Below are positions 27,392 to 51,527 of a stretch of 60,549 bases of DNA, in pieces. The stretch comes from Verrucomicrobiota bacterium. GTDB lineage: Bacteria > Verrucomicrobiota > Verrucomicrobiia > Limisphaerales > UBA9464. The notes beneath the pieces were generated by a model. That model made no database searches. It worked only from the letters and a program-made list of their open reading frames with translations, and was not told the DNA's origin. The stretch spans positions 1 to 60,549 of the forward strand of contig VHCX01000016.1 in the NCBI GenBank assembly GCA_016871615.1, read 5' to 3'. The stretch's first letter is position 1. Every line of letters begins with the position of its first letter. The position numbers and the translations under genes are program-made.

Positions 27392-27673
27392 GACAGGGTT
27401 TAGGCTCTTCCTCCTTCCGCACGACCGCAATCCCTCATTTGGCCAGGGATCAACCACCGCCGCCCGGCCCGCGGCCGCGATCGGTCCGAAGCCCTCCCGG
27501 CAGGCGATCCCATTCTCCCCGTCGAAAGATCGCCCAGGATTCTCCTCTTCCCCGGGAGCGTCCCTGCGGCCGCAGGACCAGTCCCGCGATTGGCCACAAG
27601 CCCCAACGTCGCCGGAAACTTGCATCGAGGACATTTCTGGGGCTCAGTTCGCCCTCCGGATTCCGATGCAACC

Positions 27674-43248: not shown

Positions 43249-43510
43249 CGGGCCGTGTGCATACGGCCAAAACGCCCCCGAGCCAAGCCCCGTCCCCGAT
43301 TCCCCCGGCGAGCGACGGATCGATACCCAGCGATGGCGCCGCCCCCAGCGAAGCGGGATCGGTCCGAAGTAAGCACTGGAACGTCGACATCCTGTTCCCC
43401 TTCGCGCGCCAGCTCGAAGACCCCACCGGCCCCAACGTTGCCTGCGAACGCAGGACCGCTCCCACAGAGCGCCATCGCATTGGCCCCCACCTCCCGGTAC
43501 CTTCGTCCCC

Positions 43511-44662
43511 GTGAACGACATGGTTCAACGCAGGCAGCGGGTGCTGGTGGGCATGAGCGGCGGCGTGGATTCCTCCGCCGCCGCGGCCCTCCTGCTCGAG
43601 CAGGGATTCGACGTCGTCGGGGTCACCCTCAAATTGTGGCCCCAGGACTGCGTCAACCGGGCCGAGGACAAATGCTGCGGCCCCCAGGCCGTCATGGATG
43701 CCCGCAGCGTCAGCGCCAGCCTGGGCATCCCCTACTACCTCATCGACGAATCCGCCGAATTCCAGAAACGCGTCATCGGGTACTTCGCCGACGAATACCG
43801 CGCCGGGCGCACGCCCAACCCGTGCGTGATGTGCAACCAGCACCTCAAGTTCGGCACCCTGCTCGACCGGGCCCGCCAACTCGGCTGCGACCTCGTCGCC
43901 ACCGGCCACTTCGCCCGCGTCGAACGCACGCCCGAGGGCCGGACCCTCCTGCTGCGCGGCCGGGATCCGCGCAAGGACCAGAGCTACTTCCTCTTCTCCC
44001 TCCGTCAGCACCAGCTGGCCCGCGTGCTGTTCCCGCTCGGAGAGAAGACCAAGTCCGACACCCGCGAGGTCGCCCGCGAGTGCGGCCTCCGCACCGCCGA
44101 CAAGGAGGAATCGATGGAGATCTGCTTCGTGCCCGACAACGATTACGGGCGATTCCTCGAGCAATCCCGGCTCGTCGAGCGGCACGCCGGGGAGATCGTG
44201 GACACCGGTGGGCGTGTGCTCGGGAGGCACGACGGCATCGAGTTCTTCACCATCGGCCAGCGCAAGGGCCTCGGCATCTCGTCGGCCGAGCCGCTGTACG
44301 TGCTCGAGCTCGATCCCGCCTCCAACCGGGTGGTCGTCGGCGACGAATCCCAGCTCAACCGCTCCACCTTCACCGTGGACCACTGCAACTGGATCCCCTG
44401 GGACTCGCCCCCGGCCTCCTTCGAAGCCACGGCCAAGATCCGCTACAACCACCCCGGCGCCACCGGCACCGTGGAACCGGGTCCCGGCGACACCGCCCGG
44501 GTCCGCCTGAACGCGCCGGCCCGGGCGGTCACCCCCGGACAGGCCTGCGTCTTCTACGACGGGGACCGGGTGCTCGGGGGCGGATGGATCCGGCGCGAAC
44601 CCGCAGCCCATCAGGCCATCCCGCAGGCCGCTCACCAGACCGGCACCGAGCGCACCCGGTAG
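43511..44662 (+). CDS. mnmA: tRNA-specific 2-thiouridylase MnmA
   Basis: Adds sulfur to position 2 of the wobble uridine of tRNA-Lys, -Glu and -Gln. The 383-residue product shows the PP-loop SGGVDSS, the catalytic cysteine in NPCVMCNQHLKF, the second in ESMEICFVPD, and the GQRKGLG motif. Start is GTG 43511; ATG 43520 three codons later is an alternative, and neither has a clear ribosome binding site. The last 31 bases overlap the end of the convergent secreted-protein gene. The C-terminal 20 residues (rich in H, Q, A and T) are an extension beyond the family core. Confidence 0.96.
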   Translation: MNDMVQRRQRVLVGMSGGVDSSAAAALLLEQGFDVVGVTLKLWPQDCVNRAEDKCCGPQAVMDARSVSASLGIPYYLIDESAEFQKRVIGYFADEYRAGRTPNPCVMCNQHLKFGTLLDRARQLGCDLVATGHFARVERTPEGRTLLLRGRDPRKDQSYFLFSLRQHQLARVLFPLGEKTKSDTREVARECGLRTADKEESMEICFVPDNDYGRFLEQSRLVERHAGEIVDTGGRVLGRHDGIEFFTIGQRKGLGISSAEPLYVLELDPASNRVVVGDESQLNRSTFTVDHCNWIPWDSPPASFEATAKIRYNHPGATGTVEPGPGDTARVRLNAPARAVTPGQACVFYDGDRVLGGGWIRREPAAHQAIPQAAHQTGTERTR

Positions 44663-47261: not shown

Positions 47262-48026
47262 ATGGTCCCGCCCACCGCATCCCGCCCGCCAGGTCCGGCC
47301 CGACCCGGATCGCACAACGGCTTCACACTCATCGAACTGCTCGTCGTGGTGGCCATCATCGGCATCCTCACCAGCATGCTGCTGCCCTCCCTCGCCGCGG
47401 CCAAGGGTTCGGCGCAGCGCATCGCCTGCCTGAACCACGAGAAGCAGCTCGGCCTGGCCCTCCACCTGTACGCGGGCGACCACGCTGGCCGGTTCCCGCC
47501 CCGGCTGGTCACCAACCGCTGGTGCACCACCCTGCGGCCCTACTACGTGGACCTGAAGATCCTCAAGTGCCCGGTCGACTCCGGGGCCCGCGGCACGACC
47601 AACGTCCCGGGCGCCGGCGACCGCGTCGCGGAGTACGCCCCCCGCACCTACCTGATCAACGGCTTCAACGACTTCTACCGCCGCCGGGTCGGGGCCGGCC
47701 AGATGGGCGAGTTCCGGGCCCAGGGCAACGGCGAGGTGGTCATCGGTGAGAACGACATCCCCGAGCCGTCGCAGACCGTCGCCTTCGGCGAACGCGACTC
47801 GGGCCGGGTGGTCCATTTCCACATGGATTTCGACGCCCTCGACGACCTGAGCGCGCTGCATCAGAACCGTCACGGCACGTCGATCAAGACCGGCCGGGGC
47901 GGCGGGTCGAACTACGCCATGGTTGACGGTCATGTGGAGTTCCTGCGCTACGGCCGCTCCTTCAATCCGATCAACCTCTGGGCGGTCACCGCCGAGGAAC
48001 GCAACGCCGGGGTCTCGCTGCCATGA
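47262..48026 (+). CDS. pilin-like secreted protein (prepilin leader, DGH C-terminus)
   Basis: A 254-residue protein with a type II/IV prepilin leader: HNGFTLIELLVVVAIIGIL gives the G|F cleavage site with E at +5, followed by one hydrophobic helix. The C-terminal SNYAMVDGHVEFLRYG is the signature of the large verrucomicrobial/planctomycete family of such proteins (DUF1559-like). They are thought to be exported by a type II-like secretion or pilus system; individual roles are unknown. ATG 47262 begins a Pro-rich leader ahead of the cleavage site. It overlaps the next gene by four bases (ATGA). Confidence 0.88.
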   Translation: MVPPTASRPPGPARPGSHNGFTLIELLVVVAIIGILTSMLLPSLAAAKGSAQRIACLNHEKQLGLALHLYAGDHAGRFPPRLVTNRWCTTLRPYYVDLKILKCPVDSGARGTTNVPGAGDRVAEYAPRTYLINGFNDFYRRRVGAGQMGEFRAQGNGEVVIGENDIPEPSQTVAFGERDSGRVVHFHMDFDALDDLSALHQNRHGTSIKTGRGGGSNYAMVDGHVEFLRYGRSFNPINLWAVTAEERNAGVSLP

Positions 48027-48547
48027 ATCCAAACCGCCGTGCCTGGACCCTCGGGGGGGTGGCTGCGCTGCTGGCCCTGGCCTACGTGGCGGTCTTCACC
48101 GACTGGACGTCCCCGCAGCCCATCGAGATCGCCTCGCAGATCCGGCCCGTGATCCAGCCTCCCCGGTTCGGGCGTCGGGGTCCGCAGACGCCCGGGAAGG
48201 GGGCGGCCACGCCGACCGACCGTCCGGCGGAGACCGAGCCCGCGTCCGGCGTGGCCCGCGTGACCTTCAGCCTCGACGACCGCTACCGCCTGACGTCCGT
48301 GCGCGTATTCGCCCTCGATGCCCAGGGCGAGCCGGCCCGGAAGGTCTGGGATCTGACCGGGAAGAGCCGCCAGCTCAATTCCCTCATGTACGGCTTGAAC
48401 CCCGCCGGGATGTCGCCGGCCGAGGGCTCCGACGGAAACGCCGCACCGCTCGAGGCCGGCCTCACCTACCAGTTGGAAGTCCGGGCGGGGCGTCGCCTGG
48501 GCACCCACCGCTTCCGCACCGCCGCCGTCCCCCCTCCCGAGAACTGA
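48023..48547 (+). CDS. hypothetical membrane-anchored protein, partner of the pilin-like gene
   Basis: A 174-residue protein with one N-terminal membrane helix (residues 8-26) and a Pro/Gly-rich linker, then a beta-rich domain (VARVTFSLDDRYRLTSVRVF and YQLEVRAGRRLGTHRF). ATG 48023 overlaps the stop codon of the pilin-like gene, so translation is coupled and the two products probably act together, for example in export or assembly. I do not recognise the family. Its stop codon is followed within two bases by the first copy of a small repeat. Confidence 0.75.
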   Translation: MNPNRRAWTLGGVAALLALAYVAVFTDWTSPQPIEIASQIRPVIQPPRFGRRGPQTPGKGAATPTDRPAETEPASGVARVTFSLDDRYRLTSVRVFALDAQGEPARKVWDLTGKSRQLNSLMYGLNPAGMSPAEGSDGNAAPLEAGLTYQLEVRAGRRLGTHRFRTAAVPPPEN

Positions 48548-48640
48548 GCGAGCCTTGGGAGGCGGACCACCTTCTCCCCCAGCGCGCAGCACGATGGCCC
48601 TCCCCTGAAGGAGCCTCCCCAGCGAGCGGAGGCTCCACCC
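48546..48640. repeat. small palindromic repeat, copy 1
   Basis: A 95-bp unit that recurs at 48684-48778 with few changes (offset 138 bp). It contains a perfect 9-bp hairpin, GGAGCCTCC (48610-48618) and GGAGGCTCC (48628-48636), with a nine-base loop. It begins at the stop codon of the preceding gene and could also act as its transcription terminator, although no T tract follows. No coding potential is visible on either strand between 48548 and 48868. Confidence 0.85.
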
Positions 48641-48664
48641 CATCCTTCCAGATCCCTCCCCCAA

Positions 48665-48786
48665 GGCGGAGCGGGTGGAGCCAGAGCGAGCCTTGGGAGG
48701 CGGACCACCTTCTCCCCCCGCGCGCAGCGCGATAGCCCTCCCCTGAAGGAGCCTCCCCAGCGAGCGGAGGCTCCACCCGCTCCGCC
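48665..48786. repeat. small palindromic repeat, copy 2, with 18-bp terminal inverted repeats
   Basis: The second 95-bp unit (48684-48778) lies inside perfect inverted repeats: GGCGGAGCGGGTGGAGCC at 48665-48682 and its complement GGCTCCACCCGCTCCGCC at 48769-48786, so a 122-bp element. Inner hairpin: GGAGCCTCC (48748-48756) and GGAGGCTCC (48766-48774). The right arm can pair either with the inner or with the outer left arm. The size and structure resemble a REPIN or a miniature inverted-repeat element. No transposase is present in the window. Confidence 0.85.
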
Positions 48787-48868
48787 GCCCACCTTCCCCA
48801 CGCTTGTCCTCGAATGCCAACCCGCTAGGATCCGTCCCATTGCCAAGTCACTTCAACGCACTCTCATC

Positions 48869-50287
48869 ATGTCCACTCCCCAGCCCCACTCCCCGCAGCC
48901 CGGCGCCTCCCGGCGCGAATTCCTCAAGCGCACCGCCGCGGCCGGCGGCATCGCCGGCATCCTCGCCAACCAGCCCGCCGCGGCGGCCAACACACTGACC
49001 AAGCTCGCCGCCCCCTACGCCGGCCGGGTCATCGGCGCGAACGACAAGATCGTCGTCGGCTTCATCGGCGTCGGCAACCAGGGCGGCGGTGCCCACGTCG
49101 GCCTCAACCTTGAGCATTACTCGGAGAACAACGTTGGCCTCGCCGCCGTCTGCGACGTCTCCCAGCACCGGGTGGACGACCACGTCGCCAAGATCGCCAA
49201 GAAGACCGGCACCAAGCCCGAGGGCTTCGCCGACTTCCGCCGCCTGCTCGAGCGCAAGGACATCGACGCGATCTACTGCGCCACCGTCGACCACTGGCAC
49301 ACCAGGGTGAGCTGCGAGGCCATGGACTCCGGCAAGCACGTCTACGTCGAGAAGCCGATGACCCGCTACCTCGCCGAGGCCTTCCAGATCCACGACGCCT
49401 GCAAGCGCACCGGCAAGCTGCTGCAGGTCGGCTCGCAGGGCTGCTCCGACCGCAAGTGGCACAAGGCCGCCGAGTGGATCCGCGCCGGCAAGATCGGCCC
49501 CATCGTCATGAGCCAGGGCAGCTACATGCGCAACAACCCGCACGGCGAGTGGAACTACACCATCGCGCCCTGGGCCAAGCCCGACGACATCAACTGGAAG
49601 ATGTGGCTCGGCGAGCAGATCAAGACCGCCAAGGGCTTCGACGCCGACCACTTCTTCCGCTGGCGCAAGTACTACCCCTACTGCTCCGGCCTGCTGGGCG
49701 ACCTCTTCCCGCACAAGCTGCACCCGTACATGCTCGCCACCGGCAATCCGGAGTTCCCCGTCCGCGTCGCGGCCGTCGGCAGCAAGGCCTTCAAGACCGA
49801 CCTCAACCAGTCGGGCCGCAAGCCCGAGCAGGCCACCCAGTACGTGCGTGACGTCGAGGAGATCATCCAACTCATCGCCGAGTTCCCCAGCGGCTACGTC
49901 ATGCACATCACCTCGAGCACCGTCAACGAGGTCGGATCGTCCGAGATGATCCGCGGCCACAAGGCCACCCTCACCATGGGCGGCAACAAGGTGCAGCTGA
50001 ACCCGGAGCGCCCGTTCGCCGAGGACATCGAGCCCGAGACCAGCGAGGCCTTCCCCGGCGAGAGCGTCGCGGCGCACCACAAGAACTTCTACGAGTCCAT
50101 CCGCGCCAACAAGCAGCCCAACGCCGGCATCGACCTGGCCACCAAGGTGCAGACCGTCATCTCGCTGGCCGAGATGTCCGACCGCCTTGGCGTCATGTGC
50201 TACTTCGACGCCAAGACCCGCAAGGTCACCGACAAGTCCGGCCGTGAGATCGCCCCGCTGACCTACGGCTGGGACAAGAACTCCTGA
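48869..50287 (+). CDS. Gfo/Idh/MocA family oxidoreductase, Tat-exported
   Basis: NAD(P)-dependent sugar or inositol oxidoreductase, 472 residues. A Tat signal (ASRREFLKRTAAAGG, residues 13-27) precedes the Rossmann motif GFIGVGNQGGG. The catalytic EKPM motif (VYVEKPMTRYL) and the C-terminal Gfo/Idh/MocA domain (WLGE, FPHKLHPYMLATG) are present. Such periplasmic members are very common in Verrucomicrobiota and Planctomycetes, where they are thought to process sugars from polysaccharides; the substrate is not known. ATG 48869 begins the signal. An intrinsic terminator follows at 50319. Confidence 0.93.
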   Translation: MSTPQPHSPQPGASRREFLKRTAAAGGIAGILANQPAAAANTLTKLAAPYAGRVIGANDKIVVGFIGVGNQGGGAHVGLNLEHYSENNVGLAAVCDVSQHRVDDHVAKIAKKTGTKPEGFADFRRLLERKDIDAIYCATVDHWHTRVSCEAMDSGKHVYVEKPMTRYLAEAFQIHDACKRTGKLLQVGSQGCSDRKWHKAAEWIRAGKIGPIVMSQGSYMRNNPHGEWNYTIAPWAKPDDINWKMWLGEQIKTAKGFDADHFFRWRKYYPYCSGLLGDLFPHKLHPYMLATGNPEFPVRVAAVGSKAFKTDLNQSGRKPEQATQYVRDVEEIIQLIAEFPSGYVMHITSSTVNEVGSSEMIRGHKATLTMGGNKVQLNPERPFAEDIEPETSEAFPGESVAAHHKNFYESIRANKQPNAGIDLATKVQTVISLAEMSDRLGVMCYFDAKTRKVTDKSGREIAPLTYGWDKNS

Positions 50288-50318: not shown

Positions 50319-50363
50319 CACGGCGGTCTCCAGCCCCTCGGGCCGGGACCGCCGTGTTTCTTT
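50319..50363 (+). terminator. intrinsic terminator after the oxidoreductase
   Basis: CACGGCGGT (50319-50327) pairs perfectly with ACCGCCGTG (50348-50356) across a 20-base loop and is followed by TTTCTTT. It starts 32 bases after the stop codon, on the plus strand. Confidence 0.75.
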
Positions 50364-50412
50364 CCAGAAACCCCCACCGCCCGCGGAATGGGATCAGTCA
50401 AAGGTACAAGGA

Positions 50413-50522
50413 GCGGGATCAACCTGCAGCGAGCACCAGAAGCGGACTCCCTCTCCCCCCAAACGCGCAGCCCGACGGTTGAGCCTTCCCGAGCTTCTCT
50501 GCGAGCGGAGGGTTGATCCCGC
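50413..50522. repeat. degenerate third copy of the small palindromic repeat
   Basis: A 110-bp element with terminal inverted repeats GCGGGATCAACC (50413-50424) and GGTTGATCCCGC (50511-50522). Internal stretches match copies 1 and 2 in order: AGCGAGC, GCGGAC, TCTCCCCCC, CGCGCAGC and GCGAGCGGAG. The outer arms differ in sequence from copy 2 but stay complementary. The inner hairpin of copies 1 and 2 is not kept. It lies between the terminator of the oxidoreductase gene and the NagB-like gene. Confidence 0.7.
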
Positions 50523-50576
50523 GGAGCGACACGGTTGAAGTTGCCCCGAAAGCCTCGACCGGCTTGGCTTGCAGGC

Positions 50577-51527
50577 ATGAGTTCCCGCTCCGCCTCCCAC
50601 CGCCCGATGTCCTGCGTCGCCTCGGACTGGTGGGACTACACCACCCTCGACCCGGAACTGGTCGCCGACGCCGCCGCGCTCACACCGAAGGCGATGCAGC
50701 GCCTCTCGCGCCCCGGCTTCAAGGTCACCTTCCACGACACCCTCGAAGGGTTCTACCTCGCCGAAGCCCTCGAATACGTGCAGGCGTGGAAGCGAAGCAC
50801 CGACGACAACCCGGTCGGCATCTGCGGCCCCATCGGCCCCACCGAGCAGCTCCCGCTGGTCGCCCGCATCGTCAACGCCCTCGGCCTCGACATCCGCTCC
50901 GGCCACTTCTGGGGCATGGACGAATGGGTCATCGATGGCAAAGAAGCTCCCGCCAGTCACCCCCTATCCTTCGAGAAGGCCGACCGGGACCTGTGCTTCA
51001 ACCGCATCGCCCGCAAGCAGGTCATGCCCGACGCCCACCTGCATTTCCCCAAGGCCGACACCCGGGCCTACCGTGCCTCCTGGGGTGCCGGCGTCCGCTG
51101 CGCCGTCATGCAGGGAGGCCAGGGCGACGTGAAACATTGGGCCTTCAACGACCCCGTCCGCCGCGCCGGAAAATACCGCAACACACCGCCCACCCCGGAT
51201 GAGTATCTGAAGCTGGGCACCCGCGTCGTCGACCTGCACCCGCTGACCATCGCCCAGAACGCCCGGACCAGCGGTGGCGGCAACGTGTCGCTCGTGCCGA
51301 CCCAGGCCATCACCGTGGGCCCGGTCGAAACCTGGAAAGCCGAGGCCGTCTCCATTTGGCATGCCGGCCAGCATGACAACCCCTTCGGCCAGCGCCTCAC
51401 CTGCCTCATGATCGCCAAGGGCATCGTCGACACCGCCGTGCCCATGTCCCTCCTGGCCTTGCACCCCAACGTCCGCTTCAACTACTTCCGCGGGGGCATC
51501 GGCCGCTGCGCGGTGGAGATGCACTGA
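50577..51527 (+). CDS. NagB-like sugar-phosphate isomerase/deaminase
   Basis: A 316-residue cytoplasmic enzyme of the glucosamine-6-phosphate deaminase/6-phosphogluconolactonase fold. It shows [12 protein letters not shown] (phosphate loop), HFWGMDEWV (family FNMDEY) and [14 protein letters not shown] (family GGVGNDGHIAFNEP). The motifs are conserved in position but altered, so this is a divergent branch and the substrate may not be glucosamine-6-phosphate. ATG 50577 is chosen; an in-frame ATG at codon 12 is possible. Upstream lies the Gfo/Idh/MocA gene, so a shared amino-sugar route is conceivable. Confidence 0.8.

Follow-up and report, generated by a model that had tools for sequence, protein, structure and literature searches.

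Copies of a covarying hairpin in a Verrucomicrobiota contig form a lineage-specific family of palindromic repeats

A hairpin whose two arms have changed together raises the question of what is being maintained, and in which molecule. The question arises at positions 50413-50522 of the window, the whole 60,549-nt stretch of Verrucomicrobiota DNA analysed here, where an earlier note had described a third, degenerate copy of a repeat lying just after the end of a gene, with outer arms that covary with those of copy 2, as expected under selection for a structure. The outer arms are found where they had been placed. Compared with copy 2 (TGGAGCC/GGCTCCA), four of the seven pairs differ on both sides and are still complementary, the pairs being T-A, G-C, G-C, A-T, G-C, C-G and C-G in copy 2 and A-T, T-A, C-G, A-T, A-T, C-G and C-G in copy 3. 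The internal blocks AGCGAGC, TCTCCCCCC and GCGAGCGGAG are common to both.

The element is somewhat longer than the arms suggest. R1, a covariance model with 28 pairs built from 31 copies (copies 2 and 3 included), places copy 3 at 50409-50529 of the plus strand as a full-length element (model positions 1-121; 85.2 bits, E 1.3e-13). Because copy 3 is itself among the training sequences of R1, a profile built from 30 other copies is the cleaner test; searched against the window alone, it recovers copy 3 at E=1.1e-17, so that homology to the other copies is beyond chance. The parts of copy 3, all read on the plus strand, follow from the sequence and the fold. The 5' outer arm GCGGGATCAACCT (50413-50425) faces the 3' outer arm GGGTTGATCCCGC (50510-50522) over 13 pairs, the last of which is T·G. 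Inside them lies a core with G·A mismatches, consisting of GCA (a GNA), GC, GA and GC on the 5' side (50426-50434) and GC, GA, GC and GGA (again a GNA) on the 3' side (50501-50509), delimited by the sequence and by column conservation in 150 copies. The inner stem is formed by AGAAGC (50438-50443; GGAGGC-type in other copies) and GCTTCT (50493-50498), as indicated by the fold and by covarying pairs. The predicted fold of 50411-50524 beats all of 200 shuffles (z -3.06, against -5.50 for copy 2), whereas adding some 30 bases of upstream flank (50380-50529) leaves z at only -0.21, and the minus strand of 50405-50530 does not stand out (z -0.44). The term "degenerate" is thus apt for the central hairpin, which is broken, and not for the outer and inner stems, which are intact; the truncated copy is copy 1.

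Three copies is also too low a count, since the window holds at least one more. Copy 2 (48667-48787, plus strand) is full-length, with a perfect 18-bp outer stem (48665-48682/48769-48786), and scores 92.1 bits with R1, of which it is also a training sequence, and E 4.3e-19 with the profile, of whose 30 copies it is one. Copy 1 (48544-48645, plus strand) lacks the 5' outer arm and directly adjoins the preceding ORF at its stop codon; R1 gives 50.5 bits at 48544-48631 (model positions 17-102), a direct repeat covers 48546-48645, and the profile gives E 5.3e-15. The start of this truncated copy coincides with the stop codon of the ORF at 48023-48547 (window 48540-48550), and the edge of the repeat seems to supply the TGA. 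The additional copy 4 (43349-43472, plus strand) is full-length with a partly decayed stem and lies upstream of an ORF at 43511 (R1 65.6 bits, E 8.5e-10; profile E 1.6e-13 at 43350-43470). A strongly decayed, doubtful copy at 27479-27588, also on the plus strand, is matched by the profile in the window (E 0.0038), with no R1 match at E 0.01.

Copy 3 belongs to a lineage-specific family of intergenic palindromic repeats of about 121 nt. R1 finds at least 875 matches in 13 of the 19 genomes of the genus, with up to 150 candidates scored per genome: at least 134 in G007, at least 118 in G011, 28 in G016, 17 in G000 and 6 in G010, and none in the genus genomes G004, G006, G008, G009, G013 and G014. 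The count for the window's own genome is 17. Among 50 genomes of the family, searched at E 1e-4 with stricter filters, elements occur in 13 of the 19 members of the genus and in one of the 31 others (G022, a single copy). An exact-pattern scan of species genomes matched at least 80 stretches, and the element counts come from 65 of these, whose records are named Verrucomicrobia and the like or were deposited as Akkermansia muciniphila. The records CAMCYJ and CAMATE, both titled Akkermansia muciniphila, match the genus genomes G007 and G018, and their names look wrong. The remaining 15 stretches were left out before the context counts; none carries an R1 match, seven give weak profile matches (E 0.00064 to 0.028), and one, L123, bears the name Verrucomicrobia subdivision 3. 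The same kind of scan gave no match among IMG/VR viral contigs, Rfam gave none at the elements (the window and five loci at the gathering threshold, seven loci by E-value up to 5), and a search of the open-access literature found no description of this repeat.

With genes called by a custom script rather than a published gene finder, the elements lie mostly between genes, and in only six of 83 clusters does the overlap with a called gene exceed 60 nt. Sixty of the 83 contain two to five copies, and tandem arrays are formed. Elements are frequent at contig ends (for example G007:C186, C125 and C152; G011:C142 and C18), which suggests that assemblies may break at arrays and that copy numbers may be underestimated.

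Covariation across the family could now be assessed over many copies, as the earlier note had asked. RNAalifold on 31 copies predicts 23 pairs, ten of them with two-sided changes. A larger alignment, A2, comprises the best 150 of 227 R1 matches (148 distinct), aligned by R1; in it 95.3% of 4031 cells are standard pairs, and 15 of 28 pairs show two-sided changes, against a mean of 7.7 in shuffles, of which none of 500 reached that number. Two-sided cells number 234, compared with 77 after shuffling and 9 to 32 when partners are slid along the sequence. Because A2 was fitted to the structure and its rows are related, pair states were also mapped by parsimony on a FastTree tree. For the outer stem, this gives 21 two-sided Watson-Crick swaps, 27 changes to mismatches other than G·U and A·C, and single changes from Watson-Crick to G·U in 43 cases and to A·C in 10, with 19 reversions from G·U. 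The inner pairs have no such G·U excess (six inferred events each for G·U and A·C). Raw cells give 129 G·U and 13 A·C in the outer stem, and 14 and 8 in the inner pairs.

Full copies can be folded on one strand into a common plan: an outer stem of free sequence encloses a fixed core with G·A mismatches, inside which come an inner stem and then a small central hairpin. In the core the near-fixed columns are G18 (140 of 149), A20 (149 of 149), G116 (143 of 148) and A118 (146 of 148), the letter between each G and A being free. GC comes next, then GA/GA in 114 of the 150 copies, then GC again; the exceptions to GA/GA are CC/GG in two copies and otherwise mostly one-sided, such as GA/GC (13) and AA/GA (7). 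We take GNA/GNA together with GA/GA to be mismatches of the kind that stacked G·A pairs would give. The predicted energy is better for the other strand, with means of -59.0 against -51.8 under RNA parameters and -28.2 against -26.3 under DNA parameters; among the 110 copies compared, the plus strand has the lower energy in three (RNA) and 15 (DNA). The assignment to one strand, here called the folding strand, therefore relies on how the pairs are substituted and on the mismatches, and not on energy. Judging from the aligned sequences, the repeat seems to keep a folded shape rather than an exact sequence. The proposal that a structure is under selection is thus supported by the many-copy covariation and by the inferred paths of substitution, and the structure is strand-specific.

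Comparison of sites suggests that these changes happen in place. When grouped by flanking proteins, the 83 clusters, which come from eleven genomes, make up 27 site groups, and 14 groups with 70 of the clusters occur in more than one genome, so that most sampled places appear to be inherited. Outer stems agree at 0.872 for the same site between genomes, at 0.794 for different sites within a genome, and at 0.907 among copies at a single site of a single genome. Because the stems go with the site, concerted evolution across the genome is rejected. Since most sampled sites are common to several species and same-site stems from different genomes agree better than stems from different sites of one genome, present mobility looks low. 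One site carries GGGATC/GATCCC in G007, GGGGTC/GACCCC in G003 and GGTGTC/GATACC in G005, differing stems that are each paired, which indicates compensation in place.

The site of copy 3 itself has changed among species. R1 finds one copy there in G000, G003, G015 and G018, a shortened one in G017, two in G001, four in G011, and four and a part in G007; several copies have mismatched arms. It finds no element at either locus of G010 or in G016, where a 3' remnant can be recognised by eye, and in G005 the contig ends too soon for a count. Among the six genomes without elements, five have other sequence upstream of the ORF and the sixth, G009, has no match to the ORF. A filled and an empty site, in G000 and G010, were compared by eye and are too diverged for any target-site duplication to show. 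The ORF downstream of copy 3 occurs twice in G010 (G010:C9 and G010:C231; L213 and L225) with 450 printed upstream bases that look identical, reflecting either a duplication or assembly redundancy.

The genes around copy 3 do not bear out the idea of a gene-end feature. The upstream ORF (48869-50287, plus strand) encodes a GFO/IDH/MocA oxidoreductase (Pfam PF01408, E 8.8e-17) and has an intrinsic terminator of its own between the gene and copy 3 (50319-50363, plus strand), recognised by the inverted repeat CACGGCGGTC/GACCGCCGTG and a T-rich tract. A terminator like it is seen by eye in nine of 12 printed loci of element-bearing genomes (G010 counted twice), while three prints, from G005, G007 and G011, stop short of its position. 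Copy 3 thus follows this terminator, with a gap of 54 nt (50522 to 50577) to the next ORF. That ORF (50577-51527, plus strand) has matches in 16 of the 19 genus genomes and none to any Pfam family at E 0.001; from its sequence read by eye it is presumably NagB-like. Family-wide, gene contexts are near the intergenic background. In 34 of 51 site groups both neighbours are called within 500 nt, and relative to the folding strand their orientations are ++ 11, -- 8, -+ 13 and +- 2, against 58, 70, 51 and 26 for those intergenic regions of these stretches that measure 100 nt or more. Cluster counts for gene contexts include duplicate places, whereas site groups merge them, one group joining two neighbouring sites. 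There is no sense bias to the neighbouring genes, and convergent regions are, if anything, slightly under-represented. A function as a terminator or at gene ends is rejected because of these contexts and by the separate terminator upstream of copy 3.

The most interesting new point of the analysis is that the orientation of the repeat is tied to strand asymmetry. With GC skew as a stand-in for replication coordinates, 85 sites were considered on stretches chosen for having elements on longer contigs (32 in G011, 24 in G007 and 29 in G003, G016, G012 and G000); the match lists of G011 and G007 give 80 sites each. With all elements masked, skew on the folding strand within 10 kb is negative at 76 of the 85 sites, while 300 orientation shuffles reach at most 54. 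By genome, this holds for 29 of 32 sites in G011, 21 of 24 in G007, 7 of 7 in G003, 4 of 5 in G016, 7 of 8 in G012 and 8 of 9 in G000; when orthologous and nearby sites are counted once, skew is negative at 38 of 45. The link is also found at four-fold sites balanced between gene directions (70/81, 69/84 and 66/84 at 10, 20 and 40 kb) and in intergenic DNA at 1-10 kb (71 of 80 sites). Plain skew is negative at 82 of 85 sites within 500 nt and at 82 of 85 and 73 of 85 in the next two distance bins, then at 67 of 84 (5-10 kb), 52 of 68 (10-20 kb) and 29 of 53 (20-40 kb). Three points weigh against reading this simply as replication: the link has gone at 20-40 kb; element-free 120-mers oriented by their own C-richness give 155 of 213, so composition is autocorrelated; and the elements are themselves C-rich on the folding strand (mean skew -0.12). 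Control GGGGTCRGTY repeats give 10 of 35.

Neighbouring elements also tend to agree in orientation. On the same contig, agreement is 11 of 11 (G011) and 9 of 10 (G007) at 3-10 kb, 14 of 20 and 12 of 17 at 10-30 kb, 12 of 22 and 1 of 2 at 30-80 kb, and 12 of 14 at 80-300 kb in G011. Over 3-60 kb it amounts to 29 of 41 in G011 and 22 of 29 in G007, values reached by 90 and 67 of 5000 shuffles. The G-rich strand is usually read as the leading strand, and 589 of 1080 genes on the local G-rich strand weakly support that reading here. If it is correct, the folding strand would lie on the leading-strand template, opposite to the rule for IS608. We read the tie to strand asymmetry as a putative link to replication.

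A palindromic repeat of this kind might be moved by a transposase encoded elsewhere. Y1-type transposase genes occur in 18 of the 19 genus genomes, and an R1 element or a fragment lies in six of 52 stretches around such genes (at least one place, G000:C6, is counted twice). The RAYTs of these six stretches are at least 90% identical to that of L058 and share the same flanking sequence on both sides, so they are counted as one, apparently ancestral, locus; a RAYT or other Y1 transposase was not accepted as the mobiliser on this basis. A close RAYT copy (73-100% identity, no internal stop) is found once each in nine of the 13 element-bearing genomes. In the incomplete assemblies of the element-bearing G007, G016, G000 and G010, and in those of the six genomes without elements, no copy exceeds 62% identity over most of its length. 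The RAYT stands next to what we take, reading the sequence by eye, to be a recD-like gene (the gene names MnmA and SpeA were assigned in the same way), and its occurrence as a single uninterrupted close copy in nine species looks as if it had been domesticated. Tyrosine transposase genes (L058, L179, L180, L183, L184, L055 and other RAYT stretches) carry end repeats of the GGGGTCRGTY type. Elements lie near such a RAYT end repeat in 14 of 83 clusters, against seven of 98 background midpoints, a difference too weak to use. The tetranucleotide GTAG occurs within 12 nt of an end, on either strand, in nine of 150 copies and CGTC in two of 150; anywhere in the element, GTAG is present on the other strand in 79 of the 150 copies and on the folding strand in 35. 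A second family of repeats, found partly near IS200-like genes (L047, L048, L050 and L026), has inverted repeats such as GCGTTCTGAAGGAACGC and GCCCCAACGGGGC.

What kind of element this is can be weighed from these observations. We put at about even the chance that it is a miniature palindromic DNA repeat, comparable to REPINs or ERIC, whose copying is tied to replication. The hairpin would then matter as single-stranded DNA, as in REPINs or in miniature mobile DNA of the IS200/IS605 type; recognition would fall to the core, and the outer stem would have only to base-pair; orientation would be set when the element is copied or inserted in connection with the replication fork, and local recombination would make the tandem arrays. 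Copy number and spread, intergenic clustering, the change at the copy-3 site, covariation in outer and inner stems, conservation of the core, the link to strand asymmetry and the REPIN and IS200/IS605 parallels speak for a DNA repeat. It is opposed by the lack of a mobiliser among the Y1 stretches searched, where the six with an element or fragment count as one locus and the RAYTs have end repeats of their own, and by the finding of no close RAYT copy in the incomplete assembly of G007, the genome with most matches; by the apparently low present mobility; by a polarity opposite to that of IS608 if the G-rich strand leads; by the loss of the skew link at 20-40 kb, the autocorrelation of composition and the fading of orientation agreement with distance; and by the better predicted fold of the other strand and the inner pairs' lack of a G·U excess. 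A bolder and rather doubtful version is that the family keeps the shape of one strand, with its free outer stem and fixed G·A core, at a fixed polarity to replication, either inserting at forks strand-specifically, in a way not yet described for palindromic repeats, or acting on forks or segregation as a polar signal. A family driven by the RAYT adjoining the recD-like gene, in the manner of REPs or REPINs, appears quite unlikely. Nine element-bearing genomes each have one close uninterrupted copy of the RAYT, immediately preceded by an element in five of them and by a fragment in a sixth, and GTAG does occur inside the element on the other strand, but the association is probably one ancestral insertion, the four genomes in whose incomplete assemblies no close copy was found include the one richest in elements, and the element has no terminal tag while the RAYT has GGGGTC-type end repeats of its own.

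The repeat might instead be a structured RNA element, transcribed and acting as folded RNA either in cis, on transcripts nearby, or as a small RNA, in the way described for ERIC and NEMIS transcripts (PMC2229807). This is possible, though we hold it to be a minority reading. The weak pairs of the outer stem are biased to one strand, conserved G·A mismatches are common in RNA, and sense ORFs begin shortly downstream of copies 3 and 4; against this, the repeat has no sense bias to its neighbours, its folding strand is mostly the C-rich one, Rfam has no match, and single-stranded DNA obeys the same pairing rules. Covariation does not prove RNA, as compensatory changes are also reported to be common in the hairpins of mobile DNA repeats, the REPINs (PMC3116915). 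Complementarity could even arise with no selection at all, if template switching at imperfect palindromes rewrote one arm from its partner. The outer stem's two-sided Watson-Crick swaps, placed on single branches of the tree, and stems as perfect as that of copy 2 would fit such correction, which should however not favour G·U on one strand, where G·U was entered far more often than it was left and A·C was entered rarely; moreover, the core retains its mismatches, with the G and A of GNA/GNA near-fixed around a varying middle letter, and some copies, as at the nagB-like site, stay mismatched. Palindrome correction is accordingly quite unlikely. That copy 3 starts about 120 nt past a stop codon might suggest a chance resemblance or the intrinsic terminator of the upstream gene, a reading that is hardly credible and is refuted by the homology E-values and by the separate terminator that precedes copy 3; a GC-rich stem followed by a T-run is not what is found, as no T-run follows 50522. 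The earlier interpretation as a whole is partly supported: its core, a genuine covarying hairpin, is confirmed, its frame was wrong, since the locus is a single member of a lineage-specific palindromic family with hundreds of copies. To label it an RNA would be premature.

The family brings together many natural hairpins from which selection for strand-specific folding can be read off directly, in a phylum where such repeats seem to have been little studied. It also cautions against taking stem covariation between bacterial genes as a sure sign of an RNA gene. If the polarity holds in a closed genome, it would tie palindromic repeats to replication and provide a test of spread without a known transposase.

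Among the known systems that come close are the REPINs, paired REPs of Pseudomonas, which are likewise many-copy hairpin DNA repeats with common compensatory changes and form tandem clusters that include flanks (PMC3116915). The compensatory changes in a long hairpin are found here too, while conserved inverted ends around a variable spacer are not: REPINs, as that account describes them, keep two REP ends and vary the spacer, whereas the present repeat varies its outer arms and keeps its inner core. The present repeat also has neither a terminal GTAG or CGTC tag nor an established RAYT partner. It resembles ERIC and RU-1, MITE-like repeats, in its size class (RU-1 has 127 bp) and intergenic position (PMC2229807, PMC2759123). 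As a many-copy intergenic imperfect palindrome of roughly 100-150 bp it fits an ERIC-like MITE; its outer arms are not conserved in sequence, and it differs in its free-sequence, covarying outer stem and in an orientation tied to strand asymmetry. ERIC itself is an imperfect long palindrome.

GTAG repeats are reported from the verrucomicrobium O. terrae, and the tyrosine transposase genes found here carry end repeats that resemble the GGGGWSAS motif of TIRYTs (PMC3733652). The REPs described there are palindromes of 20-40 bp ending in a GTAG or CGTC tag, unlike the element here, which is about 121 nt long and has no such tag. Orientation follows replication in IS200/IS605 (PMC5371812); in the present family it follows strand asymmetry, measured by local GC skew, in a bias that fades at 20-40 kb. 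Unlike IS200/IS605, the element encodes no transposase, and its apparent polarity would be the opposite one if the G-rich strand is the leading strand.
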